DNA of 64,000 bases, from contig BCHS01000010.1 in the NCBI GenBank assembly GCA_039545275.1, forward strand, positions 310,001-374,000, in the 5' to 3' direction. Positions within the stretch are counted from its first letter, which is position 1; each line of letters opens with the position of its first letter. The notes beneath the pieces were generated by a model. The model saw nothing but the letters and a program-made list of their open reading frames with translations. It was not told the DNA's origin and made no database searches. Both the position numbers and the translations under genes were made by a program. The DNA is from Pseudomicrostroma phylloplanum (lineage: Eukaryota; Basidiomycota; Exobasidiomycetes; Microstromatales). Below, one piece after another: positions 4,865 to 23,200 of the stretch.

Positions 4865-6313
4865 GCCGAACACGGCAACGCAGATGGAGCTGGAATGTGA
4901 TCACTCCCTGACGATGTGGGTAAAGGGTGTTTGTATCCTTCAAGAAGGGCAGCGTTTTGAAGGCGTCTTGAGCGAGCGGCGACGTGCAGCCGGCGCGCGG
5001 AAAAGACGCCGACAAAGAACATCTCCCATGGTCGCCTCGCCGTGCCGCTCACACTGCCCGCTCCTGCCGATGATCTGCCTGGCGCCGCACATCTAGAAAT
5101 AAAAGAAATGAGTAGTGTGAGAAGGTGGAGATGAGCAGATCAATGGCATGGAGGTATTCGTTTAAACTTCGGCAGTCATAAAGGCGGATGCAAAGCCTTT
5201 GTGTCTCGCATGTGGCCACGCTAGACGGGCGGCCACGAGGCCATGCAACAACGGTGCTTGGCAGCACCCTCACCTGAGTGTTTCGGACTTTGGCGGCGAG
5301 GTGTGATGTACAGGGGCTGCCCCGGGGGAGGGAGCGATCTGGGTGTGCCGCCGATATCGCCTCTGCAGGTCCGCTCATGTCACGCATGGAAGCAAGCCCT
5401 GATCATGAACAGCCAGTGCTAATGAGAGGTCATCTTCTTCACACTGTCCTTGCGTCAGTCTGGCAAGCAGCGATCGTCTTCTGTCGCAGTAACACCGTGT
5501 CCTGCGACTGGCGCCTCTTCCTGAGGCATGTGAGCGTTAGACGAGTACATCGAGACAATCGGTGCCCCTCGCTGGTTGCGGAGAAGCGTCACATAGAGCA
5601 GGTGTGCCATCTCCGTCAGACGTCCCTTGCTAGAGCGAACGGACCTGAGCGACGGCGGAGGCTGAGTGACGGAAGCGAGGCGGAAAGGGGCGCAGACCAG
5701 CCATGCGCGTCCATGAATGCCAAGAAGAGGACAGTTGCTGCAGAGGTTCGCCCCGCCCCCCCGCTTCTCCACGCCTCTGGATCCTCTTCCGTCGATGACC
5801 ACCTCATCGTTCTTGGCATGGAGGATAGGCCGGCAGCCCCGCCATCAGACCTGCTCTCAATCTTGATTGTCTCTGATCATCGCAACGGCGTGTGTCCCCG
5901 CTGAGGTGATGCCGTCATCGCCGAAAAAAGACCGTAGGTCCCCAGCTTGACAGAGCAAGAGGGAGACGCTTCAAGCGTCTCAGCCTCGTGCTGCAAGTTG
6001 AAATTGCCGTCTTGGCAGCTCGGATATTCAACAGCCGGGGACTAGATGCGTTTCTGCCGACATATGCGCTAGAGCGAAGGGCTCTGGGGTTGTATCACTC
6101 GTCAAGGGGGGTCGCGACCCATCGCGGTAGGCAACGATCAAAACAAGGCAATCCGTCAGGGAAGCCGCCTCGTACGATACTCCGCTGCCGCCAAGACATC
6201 CCTACTACATCGTGCAGCGCGGGGAAGAGCAGAAGACCGACCGCTATGCCCTCCAGACGAGTGCAAGATCCGAGGCAAGGAAGAGAGTAACACAGTAGCA
6301 CACAGCAGCCAGC

Positions 6314-6340
6314 AGAGAGAGAGAGAGAGAGAGAGAGACG
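6314..6340. repeat. GA dinucleotide microsatellite
   Basis: An uninterrupted GA repeat upstream of sugar transporter 1, about 270 bp before its ATG. Confidence 0.8.
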
Positions 6341-6421
6341 TCGGACAACTTTGCCTTTGACGCTGTGCCTGACTCGGGTGAACAGACTGGGATTGAAATG
6401 TCGCTGTTGAGCAGAGTAGCA

Positions 6422-6460
6422 GGATATCCCTCCATGGAGGGAGGACATCGCACTATATAA
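6422..6460 (+). promoter_or_regulatory. palindrome plus TATA box of sugar transporter 1
   Basis: A perfect 16-bp palindrome TCCCTCCATGGAGGGA occupies 6427-6442, overlapped on its left by the 8-bp palindrome GGATATCC (6422-6429). A TATATAA element follows at 6454-6460, about 145 bp before the ATG. The spacing suits a dimeric regulator bound just upstream of the core promoter; that function is inferred. Confidence 0.5.
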
Positions 6461-6481
6461 CGGAGCGCAGGCTTCTGTCCC

Positions 6482-6519
6482 CTCGACGAGCGAACATCCC
6501 CTCGACGAGCGAACATCCC
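6482..6519 (+). repeat. 19-bp tandem repeat in the transporter 1 leader/promoter
   Basis: Two exact copies of CTCGACGAGCGAACATCCC (6482-6500 and 6501-6519), followed by a third start (CTCG). They lie between the TATA box and the ATG, so they probably fall at the transcription start or in the 5' leader. Confidence 0.8.
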
Positions 6520-6604
6520 CTCGCATTCATATCCAGCGTCGCTTCAGGCCGTCACATTTTCTTCTCACTTGCCATCTTCAAAAGTCAACTCAAGACAGAC
6601 AAAG

Positions 6605-8410
6605 ATGGGCCTCTTTGACACCGCCCACAAGCCGGGAGAGGACTATCCGAGCTACTTCGGCCTCTCGGGTGCTCCATTGAGTCGTATGATCGGTTTCGCC
6701 GCCGGTACTGGCTTCGTGAGTTCAAAGAACTCTGGTTAAGGTCGCGGTGTATCAACTCTGTCATGCTGACACAACATCGCCCCTCTACAGCTGCTCTTCG
6801 GCTTCGACCAAGGTGTCATGGGTGGTCTCCTCACCCTGCCCTCGTTTGTGTCTACCTTTCCCGAGATCGACACGACCACACCCGAGGGGTCTTCAGCCAA
6901 CTCGTCTGAGACGGTCTTGCAAGGTCTCACCATTGGTCTCTACGAAATTGGTTGCTTCATCGGGGCCATCTCCTGTCTCTGGCTTGGTGACATGCTCGGA
7001 CGACGCAAGATCATCTGGATCGGTACAATTATTATGGTCATCGGCGCCATCATCCAGGCTACCTCGTTTGGCATCGCACAGCTCATCATTGGAAGAGTCA
7101 TTGGCGGAGTTGGGAATGGTATGCACACTGCGACTATTCCAGTGTGGCAGTCCGAGTGCTCCCCGCCCCACAAGCGCGGGATGCTCATCATGATCGAAGG
7201 AGCTCTCATCACCGGCGGTATCGCAATGGCTTATTGGATCGACTTTGCTTTCTACTGGCTGGACCCCTCTTCGACCAATGCTCCTGGCACCTACAGCCTT
7301 GACGACTACCCGCACTCTTCCGCGTCATGGCGCATCCCGATCGCTTTCCAGATCGTACTTTGCATCCCCACTATGATTACCATCTGGATGCCAGAGTCGC
7401 CTCGATGGCTTCTCCTCAGAGGAAGAGAGTCCGACGCTCGAGGAGTCCTCGCCTCGCTCGACAGGATTCCTCTCAACGACATTAGCATCGCCGCCAAGGT
7501 CAAGGAAATCAATGCCTCGATCGAGGAGGCGCAGCACAAGGGTCTCCAGGATCTCTTCAAGCAGGGCAAGGAGAGGAACTTCCACCGTACTGCTCTTGGG
7601 TTTGTTATTCAGATGTTTCAGCAAATTTCGGGTATAAATTTAATTACCTACTATGCAGCTACTATCTTCGAGTCCAACTTGGGACTTTCGCCGCTCATCT
7701 CTCGCATTCTAGCTGCAGCAAACGGTACGGAGTACTTTATCGCGTCCTGGATCGCGGTGTTCACGATCGAAAAGTTCGGCCGACGCAAGCTCATGATCTT
7801 TGGTGCCATCGGTATGAGCGCTTGTATGGCCATCTTGACCGGCTGCACATCTCCAGCGGCTCTCAACCCTGTCGGCGGTGTCGCAACTGGAGAGGCTCAA
7901 AATGATGCCCCTGGTTACGTCGCCGTTGTCTTCCTCTTCCTCTTCAATACGTTCTTCGCCATCGGATGGCTAGGTATGACATGGCTGTATCCTGCTGAGA
8001 TTACGCCGCTGTCTATCAGAGCAGCTGCGAATGGTATCTCTACATCCGCAAATTGGCTCTTCAACTTCATGGTCGTCATGGTGACCCCGATTGCGTTCGC
8101 CAATATCCGAAACTACACATATCTGGTCTTTGCTATCATTAACGCCTGCATCGCCTTCAGCTCTTGGTGGATCTTCCCCGAGACGGCAGGTCGATCGCTC
8201 GAGGAGATGGACGGCATCTTTGCTCGCTCTTCGTACATCAATCCTCACGATGTTGTCAGGGTCGAGAAGGCGACTCCCAGGAAATACGACACACAAGGTC
8301 GACTGCTGGAGCTCGAGAATGTAGACACCGAAGAAGGAGGTGTCAGCGAGAAGAAGACAGCTGTCGGAGGACCGTTGCTGCAGACTTCTTCGGCCCAGAG
8401 CAGCCAGTGA
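6605..8410 (+). CDS. MFS sugar (hexose) transporter 1
   Basis: Exon 1 is 6605-6715 (37 codons) and exon 2 is 6791-8410, with a 75-bp GTGAGT...CAG intron; 576 residues. Sugar-porter signatures appear in order: a GFDQGVMGG motif after helix 1, GDMLGRRKIIW in the first cytoplasmic loop, GRVIGGVGNGM in helix 4, PESPRWLLLRGR after helix 6, QQISGINLITYYA in helix 7, and PAEITPLSIRAAANGIS plus FPETAGRSLEEMD near the end. It should take up a hexose or related sugar by proton symport at the plasma membrane; the substrate is not readable. It is a close paralog of the gene at 17105-19309, in the same direction. It keeps only the first of that gene's four introns. The promoter has a TATA box, a palindrome and a tandem repeat. 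Confidence 0.95.
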
Positions 8411-10179
8411 TGGGATAAAGACGCTTTACGTGCCTTTTTACCTGTGACTCCTATGCTCCGAACGTCCTGTACCATCGTATGCTTGCAGAATGTAGATAAA
8501 TCCCGTATTACATGACCAAGGCGGGACTTGCTCGATGCGTCTCCTTCAGTGACTCAGTATGATACCCCTACGCCCTCAACCACGTTTCTTTCACCTTGCA
8601 CTAGCAAGAGAGAAATGCTAGGGGGGCCCGGACTCGGTCCTGGGTCCTCGCGCAGCAGCCAGATTGTAGGCGGTTGGATCGATGTCTGTACTTCTGCCCA
8701 CCCATCTGCTTTACACCGACCATCGTTTCAGCCCTCGACCTCCAGGCTTCTCCGCCCGACGGCTTCATCAGGGCCAGCCTGGCTCTGTCAAGAGAGGAAA
8801 CCACTTCACTTCAATACGCTGCGCAACGTGCCCAGTCAATTTCTTCGCAGCAGAGTGAAGCGATTCAGGCGACACAGTCCGGTCCGAATTCTGGCAACTG
8901 GCTCTGGACGATATACTTCGCAGCGACTGATCTCCCACAGGTCGTGGCGGTCTCGAGGCGGGGTCTCTTGAAGCACAGCCATTCTGTCTTTGAGAGGGGC
9001 GTGCGCCACTTGTCTTTTCGCGTGCCGCGAAGGAAACGCGGAATTCGGCACGGGTCTAGTGCCGTCGCACCTCCTCATGCAGTTGGCGGGGCTCACGTAG
9101 GCCTCGGCAGGGAGACCGCTCTAGTGCTCACTCAACGGGGGCTGCTGCAAGAAGAGAGGCTCAGGCGAAGACGGGGCAGTCTCGAGTGCTAACCACTAGA
9201 TACGAACATACGAGAGGATCCTGCGGCCGGAAGGTGTCATGGAATTGGACCAAGTTGGGAGCAGCTCAGTAGGCCTTACTATCCAAGCTTGACGCTGAAG
9301 GAAGCACAACGTATCGGCTCCGTAAAGGAGAGCCGCGCAACGGAAAGGAGTGCGCGCACTGCCAGCATGACGCGTCTGAGGTCTGCGTCCAGCCCTCTTA
9401 CTGGCGCTGCGATGACTCCTCGCCCTCGTTTTCTTCTCTTTTCTCCATCCAGACATCTCATCACATAGATTCATACCTTAGCTTCACACCACGCCTATAC
9501 TACGCATACCCTACACGATGTCTGGATCACAGTCCACTCAAGGGCTCTATTATAGGTCAGTAGTCGAAGTGCAATGCATCGACGTGCAAGTAACACCATG
9601 AGGTCTGACTCAGCTCTAAACACTCTCTGATCAACAGTACGACGCAGCAGCAAATCTGTCAAAGCTACACTACTGAATCCACTATTCCAAGCAGCGTCGA
9701 GCAGCGTTAGCTATGGCCGCATCCATGTGGGCCTCCACCACGAAGGTGCCAGCAATGGATGCACCCGCTATCGAAGACTCTCGATGGCCGTTGCTTTCAA
9801 CAGCGCTAGATCAAACGTCAGACAGCAAGTGGTACGCCTAGTAGCGATCTCTCTCTAGCACTACCAGCTAAGGGCGAGAGTGAGTCAGGACCACAGCTAT
9901 GAGACTCCAGCCTGGATCGAGCGCAAGGGCAGCAGTCGCCTCCCTCAACACCATCGCCTCAGATGTGCAAATTACCTCAGACCCAAGGTTACCATGCTGG
10001 CTCGCCCTTATGCTCTACCTCAAGAGTATTCGATGCTCCCCAACAATTCCGTCGACCTAGTGCATACATGGTATCGATCGATGGATCCCTCTGTCTGTAA
10101 GTGTCCGAAGGGTAATTAGTCGGCAATCGAGAGATGACATGACATCTGACCTCACGCTACGCTTTGCGCTGGCAAGCAG
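8411..10179. other. long intergenic region before the endonuclease array; possible lost leader exons
   Basis: No confident gene. The open frames at 8528-9192 lack domains. An ATG at 9519 begins a 13-codon reading frame that runs into GTCAGTAGTCGAAGTG (9558), a donor-like sequence resembling motifs just upstream of endonuclease copies 1 and 3 (GTAAGTGTCCGAAG near 10096; GTGAGTAGCCGAAGTG near 13550). A pyrimidine-rich stretch precedes it. This suggests 5' leader exons of the array or a further remnant, but I could not join them in frame to copy 1. Confidence 0.35.
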
Positions 10180-11565
10180 GATTCTCAGGATGCTTTCCGA
10201 GGAGACCATCATCCGAACTCCCACCGGGAACCGACCTCTCTCGACCCTTTGAACTGGCGATACCGTCTATGATGCTCACAATGAGGTCATAACGGTGACG
10301 ATCGAACCTTTGGAGCAACTGGGCAACCCCCACAGAATCGTCTTCCGCCCGTATCACTGGTCTCACAATTTTCACCACGATGACGAGGCGATCGCCTCGT
10401 TCATCGTCGACGAGCAGCACAACTTACACCTGGTAGCACCCAAGTACGTGGGTGCGATCACAATCAAGCGTCGAAAACATCCACAAATTCGCTCCATGGT
10501 CGGCTGGCACACTAGGTGTGTCGGGCAGACCTCCTCTGAAGAGGAGGCTAGGCAGGAGCTGGACTGGCCTTCGGTTCCGGCTGCTGCCGAAACCTCTCTC
10601 CGTTCGGCCCCTGGATCCAAATGATCTTCAGTTCGTCCCCCTCTGCCGGCCCCTCCAGCGACGTGTCATACGTTCCATCGAGTCAGTCAGCCAAAGGCCT
10701 GGACATGCCAGGACACATCTCCAAGGACCCAGAAGGAGGCAGTCATTACGGCAATGCCAGCAAAGCCAGCGATGAGACAGACGACGAGGACGATCCTCCG
10801 GCACAGGCACCAAGCTCCGACGCCTTCGTACGAGATGTCAACTATTCGCCCGATGTCGTTCGCCGCGCCGCAGAGCGGCTCGAGAGCGACACTGCTTGCC
10901 AGTGCGGAGCATCCCGAACCTTCACAATCACCTGCGGGTCCCGAGATGAGGCTCGGTACCTCCGGATGGCCCTTCGGTTTCCCCATTTGTCATACAAAGT
11001 AGATCCGCAAGCACTCCTTCCCGGTGACCCTCATACGGTCGCCGTCTCTCGATACGTCGCCTCAGGGCACGTCAAAAATCCAGCGGGCGGTGAGCCTCCT
11101 CAGGGTGCCTATCTGAAATTGGCTCGCTTTCCATTTGAAACGCTCACGCAAGAGGCCATAGTCGATGGGAATCTCCCCATCGAAGCTAAATGGCTCGGCC
11201 TGTGGCTAGGCGACGGTCTACACAGCGACACCATGATCTCCTCATCCGATCTGGATGAGACGAGAGACTACCTCACTGACTACGTAGACCGGCTAAACGC
11301 CACTCGCTCTGCTGGAGCAGCACCCTTACATCTGCGAATCACACCGAAGATCTTTGCTGAAGATCATCCCGTCCACAGCAATGTGACGGTCTTCGACTTT
11401 ACCATTGCCAGCACCTTCCTGGAGCACATCGGCTTCTCTCTGCCTAGGCCTGGCAAGAGCGCCGGTCCGTCCTCTATCTGCCACTACTCGTCTTTCTCCC
11501 TTGCACTGCCACACACACCCACTACTCTCTCACATCTCACACTCTCATATCCCGTATTTGAGTAG
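10180..11565 (+). pseudogene. LAGLIDADG/Hint endonuclease copy 1, truncated
   Basis: Homology to the other copies begins after a probable acceptor (GCGCTGGCAAGCAG, ending 10179). The Hint-N part (TIIRTPTGNR) hits an in-frame TGA at 10250-10252, at the place where copies 2 and 3 have LEA and LGA. Reading resumes as GDTVYDAHNEV through block B (HNLHLVAPKYVGA) to a second stop at 10622. The frame then shifts to 10621-11565. That frame carries the acidic linker, CQCGASRTF (from about 10897) and the first LAGLIDADG block LGLWLGDG (11194-11217). After IASTF (about 11415) homology to the other copies ends and the frame runs out at 11565, so the whole second half with LAGLIDADG block 2 is missing. 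It cannot make an active double-motif endonuclease. Confidence 0.7.
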
Positions 11566-11637
11566 CTGATGTGCGACAAGGCGACTTGCGAAAGATGACA
11601 CGGTATCCGAGCGTCCCACCATTGCGCTGGCGAACAG

Positions 11638-11974
11638 TAGTACCAGGCTCTCAAACGAGACTATCGTTCCAACTCCTACCGGAGATCGATCGGTGAGGTC
11701 TCTAGAGGCCAGAGATCAAGTCTTCGACTCATTCAATCAGATCATCAACGTCTCCGTCGGTCCGCCGACTCCGTTGCAGGCCGCGCACAGAGTCGTATCC
11801 CGTCCCTACCACCATGCACACAACGGTCTGCAGGAGAACGAGGCTGTCGCATCCTTCACAGTCGACTCCACTCACCAGCTACATCTCTGGGCTCCCAGAT
11901 ATGTCGCTGCGCACGTCATTCGAGACAAGAAGGAGCCCGACTGGTTTACAATTGTCGAGTGGCGTACTCGCTGT
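11638..11974 (+). pseudogene. Hint-N half of endonuclease copy 2, cut off by a 7-nt deletion
   Basis: The conserved region starts after GCGCTGGCGAACAG. It reads without a break through TIVPTPTGDR, a DQVFDSFNQIINV segment like intein block A, and block B (THQLHLWAPRY) to a cysteine codon at 11972-11974. There copies 1 and 3 have 24 nt before the conserved Glu-Glu codons and copy 2 has 17. The 7-nt deficit shifts the frame into that of the downstream ORF. No ATG opens this part; an upstream exon or a lost start is likely. The donor-like motif seen in copy 3 (GTGAGTAGC) is TTGAGTAGC here (around 11558), so its donor GT is absent. Confidence 0.6.
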
Positions 11975-13434
11975 ACACTTCTCCGGAGGAGCTCGCTAGG
12001 AGGGAGCTGGGTCAGCTCGAACGACCGATGGTCGACACATACCTTCGACCTCGCCCCGTAGAGCCAGCCGCCCACCACCCGCCCACCGCGTCAACTCCGC
12101 CCCCGTCCGCCGCCCCGTCCAGCGACCCATCGTACGCTCCAATCAGCGACCTCGATATGGACGACGATGCGGACGCACACGAGCAAGACGACGAGCAAGG
12201 CGGCGATGGCGGTCTCAACAACATCGACGAGGACGGTGACACTGACGATGACGACGACCACATGCAGGACATGCCAAGTCTGGACGGTTTTAGGCAAGAC
12301 GAGGCCTACTCGCCTCGGTTGGTCGAACGTGCCATAAGACGCCTGGCTAGCGATCAGGCTTGTCAGTGTGGAGCCACTAGGACGTTCACCTTGAGCTGCG
12401 GCTCCGAGCGCAGCGCTACGCTGCTTCACATGGCACTTCGTTCCCCAGAACTGTCAGTGACGATTGATCCACAAGTAGTACTGCCTGGAGAACCTCACAG
12501 TCTCTCCATCACCCACTTCATGACGTCGCGTCACGTCAAGAACCCAAGCCGGGGCGATCCTCCTCCTGGCGGCACATACATCAAGCTTGCGCGATTCCCA
12601 TTCGAGACTCTGCCCCGGGGCGAGGCTAATGAGGACAACCTGCCCATCGAGGCCTACTTTCTGGGTACCTGGTTGGGCGACGGATCCCACGATGCCGTGC
12701 GCATCACCACGTCGGACCTCGACGAGACGCGGGACTACCTTGCTGGGTACGTCGATCGGCTCAATGCCTCTCGGCCCCGTGGCACAGCTCCCCTGCAGCT
12801 ACACATCCGTCCTCACCTCTGGCACGAGGGGATGATACACACGAACCTCACTGCTTGGGAGCTTTCTATCACTAGCACATTTCGCGAAGATGAGGGCGGA
12901 TACTGGAATCCCCTTCGCGGTGGTCTGCAAGCGCTCGGCATCTTCGCCAACCACAAGGCACTCGGGATCCCCATTCGATACCTCAATGCGAGTCAAGAGG
13001 CGAGGGTGGCGCTCTTGGCCGGCCTCATCGACACGGATGGTAGCCTAGTCTCGAGCACCATCTACGAATTCAGCCAGAGCGTCGAGCATCGACAGATCGT
13101 GGAACACACGCGCGAATTGGCAGAGGGCCTGGGGATCAAGGTCGGAAGGGTGACCAGCCATTGGTCCATCAACCCAGCTGACCCCACGGAAGAGAACGAG
13201 TCACTACGATTCGTCATGTCCGGCCCAGCCTTGGCCCTCATCCAGCCACATCTGAGAATGCCGCGCAAGAGGGTACGCGGCGGTTTCTACGACAACCACC
13301 TGCGGGCCTTCCGCGTGGAGTTGGTACTTGAGGGGAGACGCATGTTGGGACGCAGAATTACCTGCCAGGGGCGCGAGGTCACTTTCATACAGCAACAAGA
13401 CGGCAACATCCTTCGGGGTGATTACCCACGGTAA
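11959..13434 (+). CDS. LAGLIDADG homing endonuclease, copy 2 (intact endonuclease frame)
   Basis: A 491-residue open frame starts at an ATG just before the 7-nt deletion point of copy 2. It holds a long Asp/Glu-rich linker (residues about 55-115) and YSPRLVERAIRRLASD leading to ACQCGATRTFTLSCG (from about 12358). It then has the intein-type linker around KNPSRGDPPPG, LAGLIDADG block 1 as LGTWLGDG (about 12661-12684), and block 2 as LAGLIDTDG (about 13016-13042). Both catalytic aspartates are kept. The end (REVTFIQQQDGNILRGDY) resembles the last intein strands, but the closing Val-x-His-Asn is absent, so protein splicing is not expected. It could be translated alone as a DNA endonuclease with an incomplete Hint domain. 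Expression and activity are unknown. GTAAGC follows at 13432, so a further 3' exon cannot be excluded. Confidence 0.6.
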   Translation: MAYSLYTSPEELARRELGQLERPMVDTYLRPRPVEPAAHHPPTASTPPPSAAPSSDPSYAPISDLDMDDDADAHEQDDEQGGDGGLNNIDEDGDTDDDDDHMQDMPSLDGFRQDEAYSPRLVERAIRRLASDQACQCGATRTFTLSCGSERSATLLHMALRSPELSVTIDPQVVLPGEPHSLSITHFMTSRHVKNPSRGDPPPGGTYIKLARFPFETLPRGEANEDNLPIEAYFLGTWLGDGSHDAVRITTSDLDETRDYLAGYVDRLNASRPRGTAPLQLHIRPHLWHEGMIHTNLTAWELSITSTFREDEGGYWNPLRGGLQALGIFANHKALGIPIRYLNASQEARVALLAGLIDTDGSLVSSTIYEFSQSVEHRQIVEHTRELAEGLGIKVGRVTSHWSINPADPTEENESLRFVMSGPALALIQPHLRMPRKRVRGGFYDNHLRAFRVELVLEGRRMLGRRITCQGREVTFIQQQDGNILRGDYPR

Positions 13435-13674
13435 GCTGTCAGTCCACTCTAGACGCTCACACCGCGTCATACTCGAGCATCCAATACATTCAAGTTTCCT
13501 CGTACAGTGCACGCATCATCCACACCGCTCACCTACTTTTCTTGATTGGGAGTGAGTAGCCGAAGTGTGACGAAGCGAGTTGCGTGAGGTGACGCGGTGA
13601 TTGACCCGTCCCCCATCCCCACCCCTCTTCTCTTTCCCCCTTTCCTCCTTCCCGCCAATCGCACTGGTGAATAG

Positions 13675-15394
13675 AACTTTCACGAAGCTCTCCAACGAGA
13701 CTATCGTTCGGACTCCTACCGGGGACCGCAACATAGCATCATCTTGGCGCTATCGATCGGATCTTCGATCAATACAATCGAATCATCAATGTTTCGGTCG
13801 GCCCGCCTGTGGCTCTGGCCAATCCACACGAGGTGCTCTTCCATCCATACCATTGGTCAAAGAACCACCATCATCAAGAAGAGGCCATGACCTCCGTTGT
13901 TGTGGATGCAGCACACGAGCTACACCTCGTCGCTGCCATATACGTGGGCGCAACTCTGGCCTCTACCAAAGACCAGCCCAACAATCTTTCTATCGTGAGC
14001 TGGCATACGCTGTGTGTTGGCTTCACGACTCCTGAAGAGCAGGCACTACTGGAGATCGCCCGACTGGCATGGCCGACGGTGCCTGCTGCACCAGAGACAT
14101 ACCTCAGACCTCGAGCGCCTGCAACAGCAAGTGCGGCTTCGACAGCACTCCTTGGCTCATCGCCTGGTTCAGCGCCATCGAGCGATCCCTCTTTTCATCT
14201 ATCCAGCGACGACGAAGGCTCTGAAGCCAGTGACGGGACGCTCGAGGCTCCCAGCTCGGATGCGTTGATGCAAGACGGAGCGTATTCAGTGCCTCTCGTC
14301 AAACACTTCACGAATCGTCTCAAAGACGAGCGCGCATGCCAATGCGGTGCCTCGAGGACCTTTCAGGTCACTTGCGGTAATGCTGCACAGGCCCGGCACC
14401 TCAGACGGGCGCTTCGAGCCCCTGAGCTTGCTCCGCGTGTTGATGCAAAGGCACTGCTGCCGGGCGACCCCCACAGTCTTTCGGTAGAGCAGTTCATGGA
14501 GTCCAAACACGTCAAGAACCCTCGCACGGGCGACCCTCCCAGAGGTGCATTCCTGAAGCTCGCTCGCTACCCCTTCGAGGTTCTGCCAGACGGAGGACCT
14601 CAGGCCGAGGAGCTGCCTTTGAACCCCAAGTACTTCGGCACCTGGCTCGGAGACGGGTACAATGACGCTCCTGCTATCAGTCCATCGGACCTAGACGAGA
14701 CCCGGGAGTGGTTGTCTGCGCTCGTCGAGCGCCTGAACGTCTCTCGTCCTGTGGGAGCGGCGCCTCTACGCCTCACCATCGCGCCCGTCCTCACAAACCG
14801 AGATTGGCCTCGAAGCAACCATACTGCTGGAGGTTCTCCATTGCAAGCTCCTTCCGAGAGCAGGAGGGCTATTATTGGAATCCGATCCGAGGTGGTCTCA
14901 GGCTCCTCGGCGTCCTCGACGGTGTCAAGTGCATCCCGGAGATGTACTTTGACGCAAGCAAAGAGGTCAGGGCGGCGCTTCTTGCGGGTCTCATCGAGAC
15001 CGACGGCAGCATCCGGGGAGCCACCGGCTATACGTTCACCCAGTGTGTGGACCATCAACGGCTATTCGATGACACGCGGCGACTGGCCGAGGGCCTCGGC
15101 ATTAAGATCGGCCGGATCCAGCACTCCATGGCGCCAAATCCCCACAACGAGGGCGAGCTCAATCCAGCTCTGACCTTTTCCATGTGGGGACCCGAGCTGG
15201 ACTTGCTGCAGCCGTATATCACGCTGCCTCGCAAAAGACTTCACGGCGAATTTATCGACGCACAATTGCGGTCGATCCGCGTCGAGAAGATCGCCGGGCA
15301 TCAAATTATCATGGGACGCATCGTCAGGTGCGAAGGACGTGAGGTGACCCTCGTACAGCAACAAGACGGCTATATCGTCCGTCGTAGGTACTAG
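13675..15394 (+). pseudogene. LAGLIDADG/Hint endonuclease copy 3, two frameshifts
   Basis: Copy 3 follows a good polypyrimidine tract and acceptor (GCACTGGTGAATAG, ending 13674). TIVRTPTGDRNIAS is followed by one extra base at about 13742, after which LGAIDRIFDQYN realigns exactly with copy 2. The second frame runs through block B (AHELHLVAAIYVGA), the SSDD linker, ACQCGASRTFQVTCG (from about 14334) and block 1 GTWLGDG (about 14638-14658). One T is then missing at 14828/14829: copy 2 reads ACTGCTTGGGAG where copy 3 reads ACTGCTGGAGG. The third frame supplies REQEGYYWNP, block 2 LAGLIETDG (about 14981-15007) and the Hint-C-like end to the stop at 15392-15394. All motifs survive; two single-base indels break the frame. 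Confidence 0.7.
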
Positions 15395-17104
15395 CCCACC
15401 CGTCGTAGTGCTATACTACCCTTCCACTGTGTAGAATCGTCGTTGTTGTCTTGCACTACATCTTGAACACGCATTCGCTCTCTGCCTCTTAGCATACTGC
15501 CGATATCATGCCTTTAATCACATATTGTCCGAATGAGTACAATGGCATCGCTGTGAAACACCCAGTGTGAGGTTGAGAGGGTAAGAAGAGCCTGTGAGAA
15601 AGTACCACTGCGCGCTGTGCACACACGAGACAGGCGAAATCAATGGCGAGGACGAGGAGGCGATGGTACTGGTTGGACCGGCAGAGGATGCGTTGCGTTG
15701 CGTTGCCCTTTGGCCTCGGGTGGTGGTGGGGTGGTGTTGGATTAAAGTCAAAATTCAGAATCTTTCCGCTACTTGACGCACTTGCGGCTGCTAGTGTCTA
15801 GTCGAGCACAGGTGGCACTGCCTGTCCGAGGAGAAGACACAGACATGACAAGCGTCCAGAGCTCAGTCGGTAATGTGAGAATCTGAATACGAAGCAGCTA
15901 GCCTCGTGGCTACAGCGAGGCCCTCCAGAGTGAGGGATGGCGTGTGACCAAGAAAGGAATCGAAAGGGCCACTTGCCGGCGTGGATTGAGAGCAACGCGC
16001 CACACATACCCGCCATACTTTCAAGGAGCAGACGACCAGGTCCAACCTTTCACAGCGGCCGTCGCATAGCGTGGGTCTGGTCCCTGACCCTGGAGCCTGC
16101 CAGAGCTTCGGCTCCTTGGTTGCCCCGCTTCTCCAGACGCCACAGGCGCTTCAGCGGCACAACGATGGGTAATCATTGCTTTACCCAGGTGTATTGATGT
16201 TCCGCTGTCGGCTTGGGTGATCGTGCCGTAATCCACCACAGCGTGGGCTCTTCGAAAAGTCTGAGCGCCACGCGTGGGAACGCTGAAGCGGGCAATGGGG
16301 TGTCATGCGACAAGTGTCCGGCACAAGGTCACGTCGATGAGGAGCGGCAACCCGTGCTAGCGAGGCTACGGGCGAGAGCTCCGGAGCCCCGCATTGGTCG
16401 GCGTGCCTGCGTCATAAGCGAGAAATTGGACAGAGGCGCAGTAGTTGGCTCCCTCGCCGCCCGTGTGAATGAAACAAATGCTGACACTGGGCGCTGCTGC
16501 CTGTGTTTTGCTAGCGGCACCCCTCCTTGCAGTGCGCCAGCAGGCAGACTCTACTCCGTCGGCGGCTTCACCGGCGATCTCGGGTGCCACGCCGACAAAA
16601 GTAGTCGCCTGGAGCTCCAAGGCCTGCAGGCCCTCCCCCCCTGTTCCTCATGCACGCTGCAGGCTGCATTTCATGGGTATCAGGCGCGCGGCAAATGAAG
16701 AGAGGAATTGATTGACAATCTCTGGATAGTACATCATCCGGGGGCGGAGCCGGCAAAGTTCATCCACACCGCTGTTGCAGCCGGCGCCAAGGGGAAGAGG
16801 GCTACTCCCTGGACCTCCCGCCCCTTCGCGTTGGTGCCTTGCTCGGGTGACACACCGGACAGCCATGGGGAGGAGGAGGAGGAGAACCGGTTCTCGGCTA
16901 TTTCGTCGTGTGGGGTACTTAACGGCGCGAGTCTGGGGCAATTGTCATCCCCCCATCAACCTCGTTCTCTCCCATCAAGGCCTCGGACCTCGTTGCTTAT
17001 CTTTCGTCTCAGCCGGAGCTTTCCTCCCAGCCGTCTCCCCTTCTCGTTCCACTCATCTACTTCATTCTCTCTGTTCTCAGCTTTCCCCTTGCTAGTCTGT
17101 CAAG
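15395..17104. other. intergenic region upstream of sugar transporter 2, no gene seen
   Basis: 1.7 kb between endonuclease copy 3 and the next ATG. Short overlapping open frames on both strands (such as 16213-16698) show no domains. A pyrimidine-rich stretch at about 16940-17100 is probably the transporter promoter or leader. No clear TATA box was found. Confidence 0.55.
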
Positions 17105-19309
17105 ATGGGTAGATTCAACCATACCACCGGTGATCGGGACTACCCGACTTACTTCGGTCTGTCGGGCTTGGCCCTCAGTAGGATGATCGGTTTCGCTGCC
17201 GGTGCCGGTTTCGTGAGTATCGAAAGTGATGATGTGCATGTATGCTGCACCTCCCGTACTCAAGTCTTTCTCTCTATCTACCCTCACGTTCGCAGCTGCT
17301 CTTCGGTTACGACCAAGGAGTCATGGGCGGCTTGCTCACTCTCCCTTCCTTCGTCGCGGTCTTTCCTGAAATCGACACAACTACGACTGTCGGTTCCAGC
17401 GCCAAGTCCCACCAGGCTACCCTGCAAGGAGTGGCGGTCGGTCTCTATGAAATCGGCTGCTTCATTGGTGCTATCTCCTGCCTCTGGCTGGGTGACGGCC
17501 TTGGACGAAGACCTGTGATCTGGATTGGAACCATCGTCATGATCATTGGAGCCACAATTCAATGCACGTCCTTCTCCCTAGCGCAGCTCATCGTCGGTCG
17601 TATCGTCACGGGCATCGGCAACGGAATGCATACTGCCACGATTCCTGTTTGGCAATCAGAGTGCTCACCACCTCACAAGCGTGGTATGCTTATTATGGTC
17701 GAAGGTGCACTCATTACCGGAGGTGTGAGTATCAGTGGACGCCGCTTTTAGCTGCGGAGATCAGCTTTCTGACCCTATCCACTCCTTTTAGATCTGCATT
17801 TCGTATTGGATAGACTTTGCCTTCTACTGGATAGATCCTTCCTCTCGCTACCCCACGGGTGGGTTTGACCTTGCCGACTTCCCTCACGCGTCGGCCGCGT
17901 GGAGGGTTCCCATCGCGTTCCAGATCCTCTTGTGCATCCCTACCCTCATCACAATCTGGATGCCCGAATCTCCACGTTGGTTGATGCTCAAGGGGCGTGA
18001 GGAGGAAGCTCGAGGAGTTCTCGCATCCTTGGACCAGGTCAACATTCACGATCCTATCATTACTCTCAAGACCAACGAGATTCGCGAGTCGATCGAAGAA
18101 GCTAACCACAAAGGCCTCGGTGATCTCTTCAAGCAGGGCAAAGAGAGGAACTTCCACCGCACGGCATTGGGCTTTGTGATCCAGATGTATCAGCAGATCT
18201 CCGGCATCAGTAAGTACTCATCCGAGATCCTGGAGCACCTTGAGAGTACTTTGGTACGGTACTGACCAAAGATCTCTACCAACCATCTTCATCGACTTCT
18301 TCCCCACTACATAGACCTTATCACCTACTACGCTGCGACGATATTCCAGAACAATCTCGGCATGAGCCCACTAATTTCTCGCATTGTGGCAGCTGCGAAC
18401 GGTACGGAGTACTTCCTGGCGTCCTGGATCGCAGTCTACACCATCGAGAACTTTGGTCGCAGGAAGCTGATGATCTTTGGAGCTATTGGTGTGAGTAAGA
18501 CTAGCGATCAGTGATTCGAGGTGCCGAACTGGCATGATGGCTGAGCAGGAGGTAGCAGAGCGGGATCGAGAGCATTGGGAACAGGGAGACGGGAACTCAA
18601 GCAGAGGGATACGGGAGCGTGTCGATTGCGGTACCTTCGCGACGCGCCTGGCTGACGGTTCCGTTCCGCGTCTCCTCCACCCCCCGCCCGCTCACAGATG
18701 TCTGCGTGCATGGCAATCTTGACCGGCTGTACGTCCAAAGCAGCTCTCGACCCCGTTGGCGGCGTCTCGACCGGCAAGGCTCAGAACGCTGCCCCTGGGT
18801 ACGTCGCCGTAGTCTTCCTCTTCCTCTTCAACACCTTCTTTGCCATTGGCTGGCTCGGAATGACCTGGCTCTACCCCGCCGAGATCACCCCTCTCTCAAT
18901 CCGAGCCGCGGCAAACGGAATCTCCACTTCTGCCAACTGGCTCTTCAACTTCATGGTCGTGCTGATCACGCCAATTGCGTTCGCCAACATCTCCAACTAC
19001 ACCTACCTGATCTTTGCCGTCATCAATGCACTCATTGCCATTACCTCCTGGTGGATCTTCCCCGAGACCGCCGGCAGGTCCCTGGAGGAGATGGACGGAA
19101 TCTTTGCACAGGCCTCCATGTTGGACCCATACGACGTCGTCAGGATCGAGAAGAGGACCCCAAGGAGGTACGGCACGGATGGAAAGCTCCTCGATGCGGA
19201 CAATATCATCTCCGAGCAGGGACTTGGCAATGGCATGCAGGAGAAGAAGACGGGTTCTGGCGGCAAGAACGCGCTGGTACAGACTCGATCGGCAGACAGC
19301 AGCATGTGA
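17105..19309 (+). CDS. MFS sugar (hexose) transporter 2
   Basis: Five exons: 17105-17212, 17296-17724, 17792-18209, 18315-18490 and 18698-19309, giving 580 residues. Donors are GTGAGT (introns 1, 2 and 4) and GTAAGT (intron 3). Sugar-porter motifs match transporter 1 nearly block for block: GYDQGVMGG, GDGLGRRPVIW, GRIVTGIGNGM, PESPRWLMLKGR, QQISGINLITYYA, PAEITPLSIRAAANGIS and FPETAGRSLEEMD. It is predicted to be a twelve-helix plasma-membrane proton-sugar symporter. Intron 1 sits at the same place as the only intron of transporter 1 (after GF, before LLFG). The three later introns are absent there. The two genes are a same-direction duplicate pair split by the endonuclease array. The sugar specificity cannot be read. 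Confidence 0.95.
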
Positions 19310-20246
19310 GCCTTGCAAACAGGGCTGGCTGGCTGGATATGGCTTGGCACGATCGGTGTCACCCTCTCCTTTCATACCATTGTTTCCATGTTCTGGCAAT
19401 AGGGCTCGCTGGGCTGCCACGGTCCCTGCCATCTTTCCTTTCATACCTTTCCCCCCCTTTCCGATAGAAGGTGCGCTGCTCAGATGCCGTTTGCTCTGGT
19501 ATTTAGAAGCTTCCCTCCCTGCCTTTGAATATATGTTGTATGCTCTATATTGGTTCGCAGCTCGCATCACAGCTTCGCTTGATATCCGCCTGAGGAAGGT
19601 CCTTCTCCCGTCTCCGCGGGAGGAGGAAGCTCGGCGCCGCTACCCTCCAGGACCGTTTGCCCTCTCGTCCTCACTTCATGCCGTTCCGTCCATGATGCTG
19701 CACAGGTGAATTCAGGCACACACGACCCTCATTTGCTCCCTGGTCATGATGGCCATACCTGGCTGGCCCCGACCTTCCCTTGCTTTCGTGCGATTCGTAC
19801 CCATCCCTGCAATCCCATCGCCTCTACCATCCGCAGAAGATGGCCAACCATGAGCTGATCATCTCTCTCCCTACGTACGAAGGAACAGGTCAGGTAGTGG
19901 CTGCCGTTCACAAGCGAGCGCAGGAGCTCCTCTGGTCCAGGTGAGCGAGCGGAGAGGGGCAGGCAGGCGCGGGGCAGAGGCCCAGAGGCGCGCCTGGGCG
20001 GAGCGGAGGCGAGGCGGGGCGTGAGCTGGAGCTTCTGGCTGCGAGACAGACACACACACACACACGCACCGCACACGCACAGGCAGCCAGCCTTCCGCTC
20101 CTTCCATCGTCCATCCCTGCCATACCAACACCACAGCCAAGGGCGCTGACCCTTTTCTTTCCTTCCCTCTCCCACCGACATCCTCCGAACCCCGTATCCA
20201 CCCCTCCTCTCACCCCCATTGCGCTCTCCGTTCTCCCTCGTGCGCC
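19310..20246. other. intergenic region with CA repeat
   Basis: About 940 bp between transporter 2 and SEC21 with no convincing gene. A CA-rich dinucleotide stretch lies at about 20046-20092. The following pyrimidine-rich segment up to the ATG is the likely SEC21 promoter. Confidence 0.55.
20046..20092. repeat. CA-rich microsatellite
   Basis: CA dinucleotides interrupted by CG, about 155-200 bp upstream of the SEC21 ATG. Confidence 0.75.
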
Positions 20247-23200
20247 ATGTCGCTCAGCAAGAAGAACGAAGAGGCGGGCGGCGGCGTGGGCTCCTTCTAC
20301 CAGGACAAGGCCTCGGTAGTACAGGAGGCCAGGGCCTTCAATGAGACGCCCGTATCGCCCAGGAAGTGCAGGATCGTGCTCACAAAGGTCCTGTATCTCC
20401 TCTACACTGGCGAGACTTTCGGAAGGCAGGAGGCCACGACGCTCTTCTTTGGCTGCACAAAGCTCTTCCAGAACAAGGACGTGAGTAGTGGACAGGCGAG
20501 GGGTTCTGGCGCATAGAGACGGACAGGAAGCTCACTCCCAATGATGCCTCACTCATTGGGCCTTCTCTCCTCCATCAGTCTGCTCTTCGTCAGATGGTCT
20601 ACCTGGCCATCAAGGAGCTCTGCCCCCTCGCAGACGATGTTATCATGGTCACTGCCTCTATTATGAAGGACATGCAACCAAACGTAGAGGTCATCTACCG
20701 GCCCAATGCCATCAGAGCTCTCAGCCGCGTCGTGGATCCCTCCATGGTTCAGGGACTAGAGCGTTTCTTCAAGTCCGCCATTGTTGATCGCAACACCTCC
20801 ATCTCGTCTGCAGCCCTCGTCTCTTCTTACCACCTCCAAGTCGGCGCCCGAGACGTAGTCAGACGATGGGGTAACGAAGCGCAGGAAGCTATCAGCCCCA
20901 AGTCTTCTTCGGGCGGTGGGGGTGGTGGCTTTGGCGGCTTCGGCTTTGGGCTGGGAGGCGGTGGACAGCAGCAGCAGAACCAGAGCGGCTTCCAGAGCAT
21001 TCCCAGCAGCTCCAACATCGTCCAGTACCACGCCCTCGGTCTCCTCTACCTCATCCGATCGAGCGACCGCATGGCAGTCACGAAGCTCGTACAGCAGCTT
21101 TCTGGCGCGGCTTCTGGGCGCGGAACATCAGCACCGGTCCTGCGCAGTCCCATGGCCCTGTGCATGCTCGTCAGGTACGCTGCCAAGGTAGCAGAGGAGG
21201 ACCCCAACCTCAGGGGTGTGATGATGGAGCTTCTGGAGAATTGGCTCAGGCACAAGTCTGACATGGTCAACTACGAGGCTGCTCGAGCCATTTGCGAGAT
21301 GAGAGGGGTCACTGCTGCCGAGCTCGCTCGTCCAATTGCCGTCCTCCAGCTCTTCCTCTCCTCGTCAAAGGCGACTCTCAAGTTTGCTGCGATCCGAACC
21401 CTCGCTAAGCTCGCTCAGGCACAGCCAGCTGCTGTGTCGAACTGCAACGTGGACATGGAGAACCTCATCACCGACTCCAACCGAAGCGTTGCGACCTACG
21501 CCATCACTACTCTGCTGAAGACGGGTACCGAGGCCTCGGTTGATCGCTTGATGAAGCAGATCAGCACTTTCATGAGCGAGATCTCGGACGAGTTCAAGGT
21601 CATTGTTGTGGACGCCATCCGCTCTCTCACGCTCAAGTTCCCCACCAAGCAGGTGACCATGCTTGCATTCCTCTCTGGCGTCCTGCGCGACGAGGGAGGC
21701 TACGAGTTCAAGAAGGCCGTCGTAGAGGCCATCTTTGACATGATCCGATTCATTGGCGACTGCAAAGAGGCTGCTCTAGCGCATCTCTGCGAGTTCATCG
21801 AAGACTGCGAGTTCACCAAGCTCTCCGTCCGTGTTCTTCACGTCCTGGGGAGCGAAGGACCCAAGATGCTCACTCCGCAAAAGTACATTCGCTACATTTA
21901 TAACCGAGTCATCCTCGAGAATGCCATTGTGCGAGCTGCTGCCGTCAATGCTCTCGCCAAATTCGGCGTGAACGACAAGGCCCTTGCTGGACGCATCGAG
22001 GTGCTGCTCACTCGCTGTCTGGACGATGTTGATGACGAGGTGCGAGACCGTGCTGCTCTCAACCTCAAGCTTCTGTCGAACACGACGCTCGCCGACCGCC
22101 TAATCAAGGATGAGTCGTCGTTCAAGCTCAACGACCTCGAGACTCAGCTGCAAAACTACCTCACTGCTGGTCCCTCATCTGCTGCGTTTGACGTGTCGTC
22201 CGTCGCAAGGATTTCGCGAGAGGAGGCTCAGCAGGAGGCACTGCGGGCCAAGACGGCTGCTGCTTCGCAAGTCGCCATGGCTTCCGAGGGCTCCTCCAAG
22301 GTGGCCTCGACGTCTGCTGCTGGTGCTCAGGCAAACGGCGGTGGTGCCTCGTCATCCTTTGCCGATGCCCAGAGTGCCTACGCTTCCGAATTGAGTTCGA
22401 TCTCGCAGCTGTCGAGCTATGGACCCCTGCTCAAGTCGTCTTCGAAGCCGGTCGAGCTCACAGAGAGGGAAACAGAGTACGTCGTCACGGCCGTCAAGCA
22501 CGTCTATGCAGAGCACATTGTCCTGCAGTTCAACGTCACCAATACCCTCTCCGAAGCTGTGCTGGAGGACGTGGCCGTGGTGGTGGGAGGTGTAGAAGAT
22601 GCCGGTCTGACAGAAGACTTCATCCTCCCTGTCGGCCTGCTCAATCAAGAGTCTCCCAGCGGAAAAGTCTACGTCTCCTTTACCCGCAACGGCGGCGCAA
22701 ACGAGTTCCCTCAGGGCTCACTGACGGCCACTCTGCGCTTCACGACAAAGGAGGTGGATCCTTCTTCGGGCGAAGTGGAAGAGGAAGGATTCGAAGACTC
22801 GTACGAAATCGAGGCGCTGGACCTGGGCGTATCCGACTATGTGCAGCCCAGGTTCTGCGACTTTGAGAGAGAGTGGGGAGAGTTGGGCAGTAGCGGCGCT
22901 GCTAGTGCCACTGAGACGTACTCGCTCACGGCGGTGGCGTCTCTCAAAGGTGAGTCTGTCTTGCACGAGAGCAACGCGAGTTGCGTTACAGAAGACTGAA
23001 CCTGTTCACCTTTCCCCTCTGCCTAAACCAGATGCCTGCGACCTGCTCATCCCGCTGCTCGGCCTCGAAGCTCTCGGCGGCACCGACACGCCCACGTCCA
23101 GCAGCGTGCACACGCTCAACCTAGCCGGGTCCGTCGTGGGGGTGAATGCAGGTAAGGCGTCTCAGCAAAAGGTCCTCACGCGCGCCCGAATGACCTACTC

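Follow-up and report, generated by a model that had tools for sequence, protein, structure and literature searches.

The 64,000-nucleotide window of the Pseudomicrostroma phylloplanum genome analyzed here (C10:310001-374000) contains three copies of one endonuclease gene, arranged head to tail on the same strand at 10190-15394 between the tandem sugar-transporter genes TP1 and TP2. The copies belong to a family which is real, decayed, intein-derived and free-standing, and which is distinct from the HO and WHO endonucleases of budding yeasts. On balance we lean towards the view that they are decayed representatives of a family of LAGLIDADG endonucleases in basidiomycetes, free-standing and derived from an intein, which evolved independently into WHO-like homing elements with sugar transporters as host genes. 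The genome searched comprised 17.08 Mb in 20 contigs (G000), and the searches for further copies in it give lower bounds. Positions without a contig name refer to the window.

Organization of the array

Copies 2 and 3 carry, in broken frames, a Hint-N domain, an acidic linker, a Cys motif (CxCG...C), two LAGLIDADG motifs and a Hint-C end, in this order (Table 1). Copy 1 follows the same order up to LAGLIDADG 1; similarity ends at approximately 11433, and neither LAGLIDADG 2 nor Hint-C is present. Identity among the window copies was 49-52% in the aligned parts from the linker onward, and copies 2 and 3 were 38% identical over part of Hint-N. An earlier note, made from the letters of this stretch, had described three head-to-tail copies, all with the full motif order, from 10180 to 15394. 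The tandem arrangement and the end of the array were confirmed, the full order was found in copies 2 and 3, and the first copy begins at 10190.

We found six further family proteins. P0001, P0002, P0008, P0009 and P0011 were retrieved from collections of metagenomes or assemblies; P0010, a hypothetical protein of 196 residues from Microstroma glucosiphilum (Ustilaginomycotina; BCV69DRAFT_39932), is the only named relative. None of them spans the full length between Hint-N and Hint-C. Searches of viral and prokaryote contigs with one protein query each gave 5 and 42 pattern matches, respectively, among which no relative was confirmed, and none of the titles and abstract starts listed from the open-licence PMC literature described such a family.

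Identity of the domains

The LAGLIDADG identity of the family is certain. The cut-off of the Pfam family Hom_end (PF05204, 21.1 bits) was passed by two of the five window frames scanned, namely the 491-residue frame of copy 2 (26.5 bits), for which the earlier note had proposed such a scan, and the 3' frame of copy 3 (22.2 bits). The remaining three, which hold Hint-N or LAGLIDADG 1 only, gave no family over the cut-off, and four frames compared with NCBIfam gave nothing above cut-off. Hom_end was matched by 5 of 9 family rows at E up to 1. A single-sequence search of PDB found PI-SceI at E = 0.044 only. The profile of nine family rows retrieved seven PDB sequences with E up to 1. Five were PI-SceI/VMA1 chains (E = 2e-8 to 3e-7), and the other two, ribosomal P2 proteins, had E = 0.28-0.33. 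Profile-profile comparison with HO and PI-SceI sequences aligned 150 LAGLIDADG columns (probability 96.8%, E = 2.3e-10). The Asp residues of the LAGLIDADG motifs are catalytic, and copies 2 and 3 retain them in both motifs. These two copies are LAGLIDADG homing endonucleases of the intein type; copy 1 has the first motif only. An ordinary protein family, the outcome that would have contradicted the earlier note, is ruled out by Hom_end over its cut-off and by PI-SceI as the sole credible PDB match, and the intein-derived nature proposed there is upheld.

The Hint-N identity is very likely. The Hint-N profile aligned with VDE (the VMA1 intein, PI-SceI), HO and WHO from residue 1 and nearly end to end (P = 1.6e-4 and 4.3e-4, probability 24 and 34%), and the best of 40 column shuffles reached 1.3%. 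The probability was 17% against VDE and HO alone, 0.4% against three WHO rows alone and 1.1% against DnaB-type inteins, the last being inside the shuffles (maximum 2.0%) of a first, poorer crop. The best match of Hom_end_hint was the copy on contig C18 (E = 0.027, below cut-off).

Structure models were of low confidence and were counted as weak support only. The AlphaFold model of copy 2 had a mean predicted local distance difference test score (pLDDT) of 45 and a predicted template modelling score of 0.34; all 11 matches of this model with E up to 0.001 were PI-SceI structures, with template modelling scores of only 0.17-0.21 of the query. For the weak model of P0001 Hint-N (pLDDT 41) ranks 1-9 were all inteins (E = 0.07-0.85).

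Between the linker and LAGLIDADG 1 all three copies conserve a CxCGxxRTFxxxCG motif, which is partly lost in the C18 copy. It possibly binds metal.

Free-standing form

At intein position 1, the place of Cys or Ser in a splicing intein, copy 1 has Met (ATG 10190), copy 2 Arg (11645-11647) and copy 3 Lys (13685-13687). Met stands there in 3 of the 5 genomic copies in which the codon is preserved, namely copy 1, the first copy on C18 (MLGVDTVI) and the second on C13 (MLGVDTVL). P0001, P0008 and P0011 also start at that Met; gene callers favour Met, so we did not count them as independent. The frames stop exactly where the C-terminal splice site of the intein used to be, and they lack His-Asn. 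Copies 2 and 3, the third C18 copy, the C1 copy and P0002 all end at the Hint-C end, with no C-terminal zinc finger, and no extein was seen on either side of the window copies. The earlier note was right about the missing Cys and His-Asn, the absent extein and the HO/WHO-like form, free-standing and tandem; the residues at position 1 which it had given as Ala, Asn or Arg are Met, Arg and Lys.

Hint and LAGLIDADG domains in intein order could also be remnants of ordinary inteins within a host protein gene. The lack of an extein, the Met in place of Cys and the stop codon at the old splice end make this highly unlikely, and an exon-like frame upstream of copy 1 fails to join it in frame when read by eye.

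The leaders of the three copies (10100-10186, 11560-11640 and 13550-13680) align in part. Those of copies 1 and 3 have GTAAGT/GTGAGT-like starts, and a common CTGG..A.AG stands directly before the frame, resembling an intron of the 5' untranslated region (UTR). An upstream exon in frame with copy 1 was also considered; by eye, the junction reads as a stop, so a 5' UTR intron is weakly preferred. An Rfam scan of positions 5000-20500 gave no match.

Decay and past selection

All three window copies are damaged (Table 1). Copy 1 is cut short and also contains an in-frame TGA and a frameshift, while copy 2 has a single 7-nucleotide gap, judged against P0001, and copy 3 has two frameshifts. The 491-residue frame of copy 2 begins after Hint-N and is no complete gene alone. 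Splicing introns are an unlikely cause of the frame breaks: the protein alignment continues across the joints with short gaps, at sites which differ between copies.

We compared eight pairs of copies for nonsynonymous (dN) and synonymous (dS) divergence. Copy 2 and two parts of copy 3 gave dN of 0.47 and 0.42 with dS of 2.1 and 2.4, two C18 pairs gave dN of 0.16 and 0.22 with dS of 1.49 and 1.62, and copy 2 compared with C18 gave dN of 0.56 with dS of 2.65. The other three pairs gave no dS, and the ratios are rough, since dS was near saturation. In every one of the eight pairs the third codon positions were the most divergent. It thus seems that the copies mostly still encoded working proteins, under purifying selection, while they diverged, and that they broke later.

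Such signs would also be left by a domesticated host endonuclease, used for example in programmed rearrangement, which was duplicated and then lost. The WHO study (PMC7282813) presents HO, a zinc-finger protein whose site of action in mating-type switching is MAT, as a known case of domestication. Damaged, divergent copies at five loci fit the decay cycle of a mobile element better than a single host gene, and we regard domestication as improbable.

Relationship to HO, WHO and other inteins

We collected 106 sequences matching the seed profile, dropped 5 with fewer than 110 matched residues and, from the remaining 101, used 61 (about every second prokaryote-type row), or 58 after omission of three long rows. 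The tree was built on 242 columns of the LAGLIDADG core and is without PRP8, RNA polymerase, GLT1 or CHS inteins as such. HO was represented by 7 of the 32 rows P0013-P0044, drawn from the best 120 of 422 matches, and WHO by proteins from Torulaspora globosa and Lachancea that are annotated as hypothetical or of unnamed function and were labelled by genus and likeness to HO. The family formed one clade (100/100) and HO, WHO and VDE another (100/100), with the family outside the latter; the family rows were flagged by the tree tool for their long branches and unusual composition. Approximately unbiased (AU) tests rejected the grouping of the family with HO and WHO (p = 3.5e-4), with WHO (p = 2.1e-4) and with HO (p = 4.8e-5). 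A clade of the family with HO, WHO and VDE was not rejected (p = 0.096), while the free tree places the family outside.

The same AU results bear on the idea that the copies are true HO/WHO family members acquired horizontally from budding yeasts. The free-standing form, the clusters and a host-gene neighbour are shared with those families (PMC7282813). Met at position 1 is likewise found in HO. Given the three rejections and the frames that end at Hint-C without a zinc finger, such a transfer is very improbable.

The regions disagree about more distant descent. Under the LAGLIDADG family profile the 40 best of 88 prokaryote-type rows scored 54.8-75 bits, PI-SceI 36.7, HO 25-34 and WHO 12-19, most prokaryote-type rows having been collected by likeness to HO/VDE. 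Hint-N points the opposite way, being nearer to VDE/HO than to DnaB-type inteins. Outside the family, the profile search matched solely six prokaryote-type intein proteins (E = 4e-10 to 4e-4). The ancestor may therefore have been either a VMA1-type intein at an early stage or an intein of a different kind. In part of a published table (PMC5784728), Ustilaginomycotina appear under Prp8 and RNA polymerase inteins, not under VMA1.

The earlier note had suggested an independent or ancient escape of an intein to a mobile, free-standing life, and a tree with VMA1, PRP8, HO and WHO proteins as a check. Separation from HO and WHO is what the tree described above gives; separation from VMA1 holds in the free tree, with the AU value above on the other side. 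The free-standing life is confirmed, and "mobile" has to be limited to the past, because every copy found is decayed.

Further loci and their sugar-transporter neighbours

Four further loci were found, on C18, C9, C1 and C13 (Table 1). At least two copies are present at 4 of the 5 loci, the second copy at C9 resting on a weak Hint-N match (E = 0.004). Genomic matches of Hom_end with E up to 1 were confined to C10 (two matches, over cut-off) and C18 (two, under cut-off), and Hom_end_hint had no match at E up to 1, so that no further intein was found this way.

A same-strand gene of the Sugar_tr family ends 1.8 kb (C10), 1.6 kb (C18) and 1.2 kb (C9) before the first recognisable array piece, and a second one lies downstream of the array at C10 and C18. 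Sugar_tr-like matches in the genome were merged into 26 loci, which is a lower bound. The chance that at least 3 of 5 array loci would lie within 2.5 kb downstream of such a gene on the same strand was 7e-8, and within 5 kb on any side 5e-5 (8e-7 and 6e-4, respectively, with 60 transporter genes); these criteria were set after the data had been seen and C10 and C18 possibly share a duplication, so the true surprise is smaller. Approximately 0.5 kb beyond the C18 array, at C18:274391-274582 (L009), codons 460-523 (64 aligned) of the upstream transporter tA are repeated in inverted orientation with 77% identity, and the DNA similarity extends through the stop codon. The sugar-transporter neighbours, absent from the earlier note, are in our view the best clue to how the element worked.

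The association can also be read as segmental duplication, which spread free-standing endonuclease genes together with neighbouring transporters, the latter being passengers and not homing targets. The transporter tB of C18 is the best genome match of TP1 after TP2 (49% identity, 38-44% for the next ones), and the C10 and C18 arrays both lie upstream of a member of this group. Moreover, the inverted 3' end at C18 is unforeseen by the WHO model, and C1 and C13 are located elsewhere. Against duplication, the upstream neighbours tA (C18), TP1 (C10) and t9 (C9) are only about 28-35% identical to one another (42% in one short stretch), yet each is positioned in the same way with respect to its array, C9 being the third such site, and purifying selection between copies needs a reason for continued activity. 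We consider segmental duplication a serious but rather unlikely explanation.

The reading that we favour, of WHO-like homing elements with transporters as host genes, has several points against it besides the rough dN/dS ratios and the late choice of enrichment criteria. No copy at the five loci keeps an unbroken frame from Hint-N to Hint-C. Support for Hint-N is modest: P0001, P0008 and P0011 gave no match to Pfam at E up to 0.1. Neither C1 nor C13 adjoins a Sugar_tr gene. Apart from TP2, the closest paralogue of TP1 is tB, so a single old duplication may underlie both C10 and C18, and the association would then count as two events instead of three. A recognisable duplicated 3' end was found at one of the three sugar-transporter arrays, in the wrong orientation for a simple WHO model, and no convincing duplicated transporter 3' fragment was found in the C10 window or at C9. 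Finally, the WHO model expects the youngest copy nearest to the host gene, but the copy closest to TP1, copy 1, has suffered the heaviest damage.

Transporter fragments at C9 (31-35% identity, E = 0.03-0.06) were judged to be chance matches. At C13, ZPR1 lies upstream on the same strand, and on the other side, approximately 0.5 kb away, a CNT nucleoside transporter faces the array with its 3' end; these relics again adjoin a solute transporter, though of a different family, and no ZPR1 or CNT fragments were found in the C13 gap. C1 lies between SRPRB-like and CSTF2-like genes (named by eye). A gene resembling the major facilitator superfamily, with a faint match to TP1 (E = 0.004), lies approximately 3.3 kb from C1 on the other strand and was left out of the count.

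TP1 keeps only the 5'-most intron which it shares with TP2 and is without the three later introns of TP2, one of which, by eye, is also present in tB. Loss of 3' introns in TP1 would fit replacement of the 3' part of the gene from complementary DNA, perhaps during break repair.

Table 1. Positions of the endonuclease copies, their motifs, the adjacent transporters and the further loci.
Feature	Position	Strand	Remarks
Copy 1, decayed	10190..11433	+	Met at intein position 1; TGA 10250-10252; frameshift near 10.6 kb; ends after LAGLIDADG 1
Copy 1 Hint-N	10190..10561	+	motif B DEQHNLHL 10409-10432; 58% identity to P0001 residues 1-124
Copy 1 Cys motif CQCGASRTFTITCG	10897..10938	+	
Copy 1 LAGLIDADG 1 (WLGLWLGDG)	11191..11217	+	
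Copy 2, decayed	11645..13434	+	7 nucleotides missing near 11974 relative to P0001, else complete; Arg at position 1
Copy 2 Hint-N	11645..11974	+	motif B DSTHQLHL 11864-11887; 65% identity to P0001 residues 2-110
Copy 2 Cys motif CQCGATRTFTLSCG	12361..12402	+	
Copy 2 LAGLIDADG 1 (FLGTWLGDG)	12658..12684	+	
Copy 2 LAGLIDADG 2 (LLAGLIDTDG)	13012..13041	+	PF05204
Copy 2 Hint-C end	13345..13431	+	without His-Asn, then stop
Copy 3, decayed	13685..15394	+	frameshifts near 13.75 and 14.825 kb; Lys at position 1
Copy 3 Cys motif CQCGASRTFQVTCG	14337..14378	+	
Copy 3 LAGLIDADG 1 (YFGTWLGDG)	14631..14657	+	
Copy 3 LAGLIDADG 2 (LLAGLIETDG)	14978..15007	+	PF05204, 22.2 bits (cut-off 21.1)
Copy 3 Hint-C end	15311..15391	+	without His-Asn, then stop
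Copy 1 5' leader, perhaps a 5' UTR intron (weak)	10100..10186	+	intron-like signals; three-way alignment, partly alignable to other leaders
TP1, Sugar_tr transporter, presumed host gene upstream of array	6605..8410	+	one intron 6716-6790; PF00083 E = 2.2e-105 on 6818-8407; exon bounds from sequence
TP2, tandem paralogue of TP1, downstream of array	17105..19309	+	intron bounds by eye
Locus on C18	271084-273922		three copies: one with Hint-N, two cut on the 5' side
Locus on C9	~212.4-213.1 kb		end of one copy; the next represented by a weak Hint-N match (E = 0.004)
Locus on C1	370.1-370.95 kb		one cut copy
Locus on C13 (L025/L026)	257557-259044		two tandem Hint-N-only relics

Proposed history of the element

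We put forward, as a plausible though still tentative scenario, that intein escape followed by WHO-style homing next to a neighbour gene arose a second time, in Ustilaginomycotina, and replaced 3' ends of sugar-transporter host genes. Cleavage, a target site and homing are what we infer here. The Hint domain has lost its splicing residues, and translation would start at a Met in place of the first Cys of the intein and end at the former C-terminal splice end. The endonuclease gene sits directly downstream of its presumed host gene, which in most cases is a sugar transporter. If a cell were heterozygous for the element, the allele without it would be cut close to the 3' end of the host gene, and repair from the filled chromosome would copy the endonuclease gene together with a cut-resistant 3' end. 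The old 3' end and older copies would be pushed outward at each round, so that repeated rounds might produce tandem clusters, which then decay.

If this is true, inteins became neighbour-homing elements more than once, also without a zinc finger, and such a life would be a recurrent one, not an oddity of yeasts. Selfish endonucleases would then edit the 3' ends and the copy number of sugar-transporter genes and reshape nutrient-transporter families, and the origin of HO would become testable by comparison.

Comparison with known systems

Among the prokaryote-type LAGLIDADG inteins (DnaB and others), the 40 best of 88 rows gave the highest scores in the LAGLIDADG region. Such inteins differ from the family in residing inside host proteins such as DnaB, and their Hint-N similarity is weak. 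VDE (PI-SceI) was the best PDB match both by sequence (E = 2e-8) and by the weak model, and its Hint-N aligned nearly end to end. VDE splices out of VMA1, whereas the family has neither extein nor splicing residues. HO shares with the family the free-standing form and Met at intein position 1; it differs in its zinc finger, and nesting with it was rejected.

WHO genes of Torulaspora and Lachancea resemble the family in layout. They are free-standing intein-like endonuclease genes without exteins or the C-terminal intein motif, and form tandem clusters rich in pseudogenes downstream of the carbon-metabolism gene FBA1, a site which holds for most, not all, of them; a few lie at other loci (PMC7282813). 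Some clusters contain duplicated FBA1 3'-end fragments, which the model described there treats as part of the element. The family is a separate lineage whose neighbours are sugar transporters at 3 of 5 loci, none lying downstream of FBA1, and its sole 3' fragment is inverted. WHO proteins carry CxxC motifs in a C-terminal zinc finger; the family is without one and has its Cys motif between Hint-N and LAGLIDADG instead, and its one named relative is a basidiomycete.

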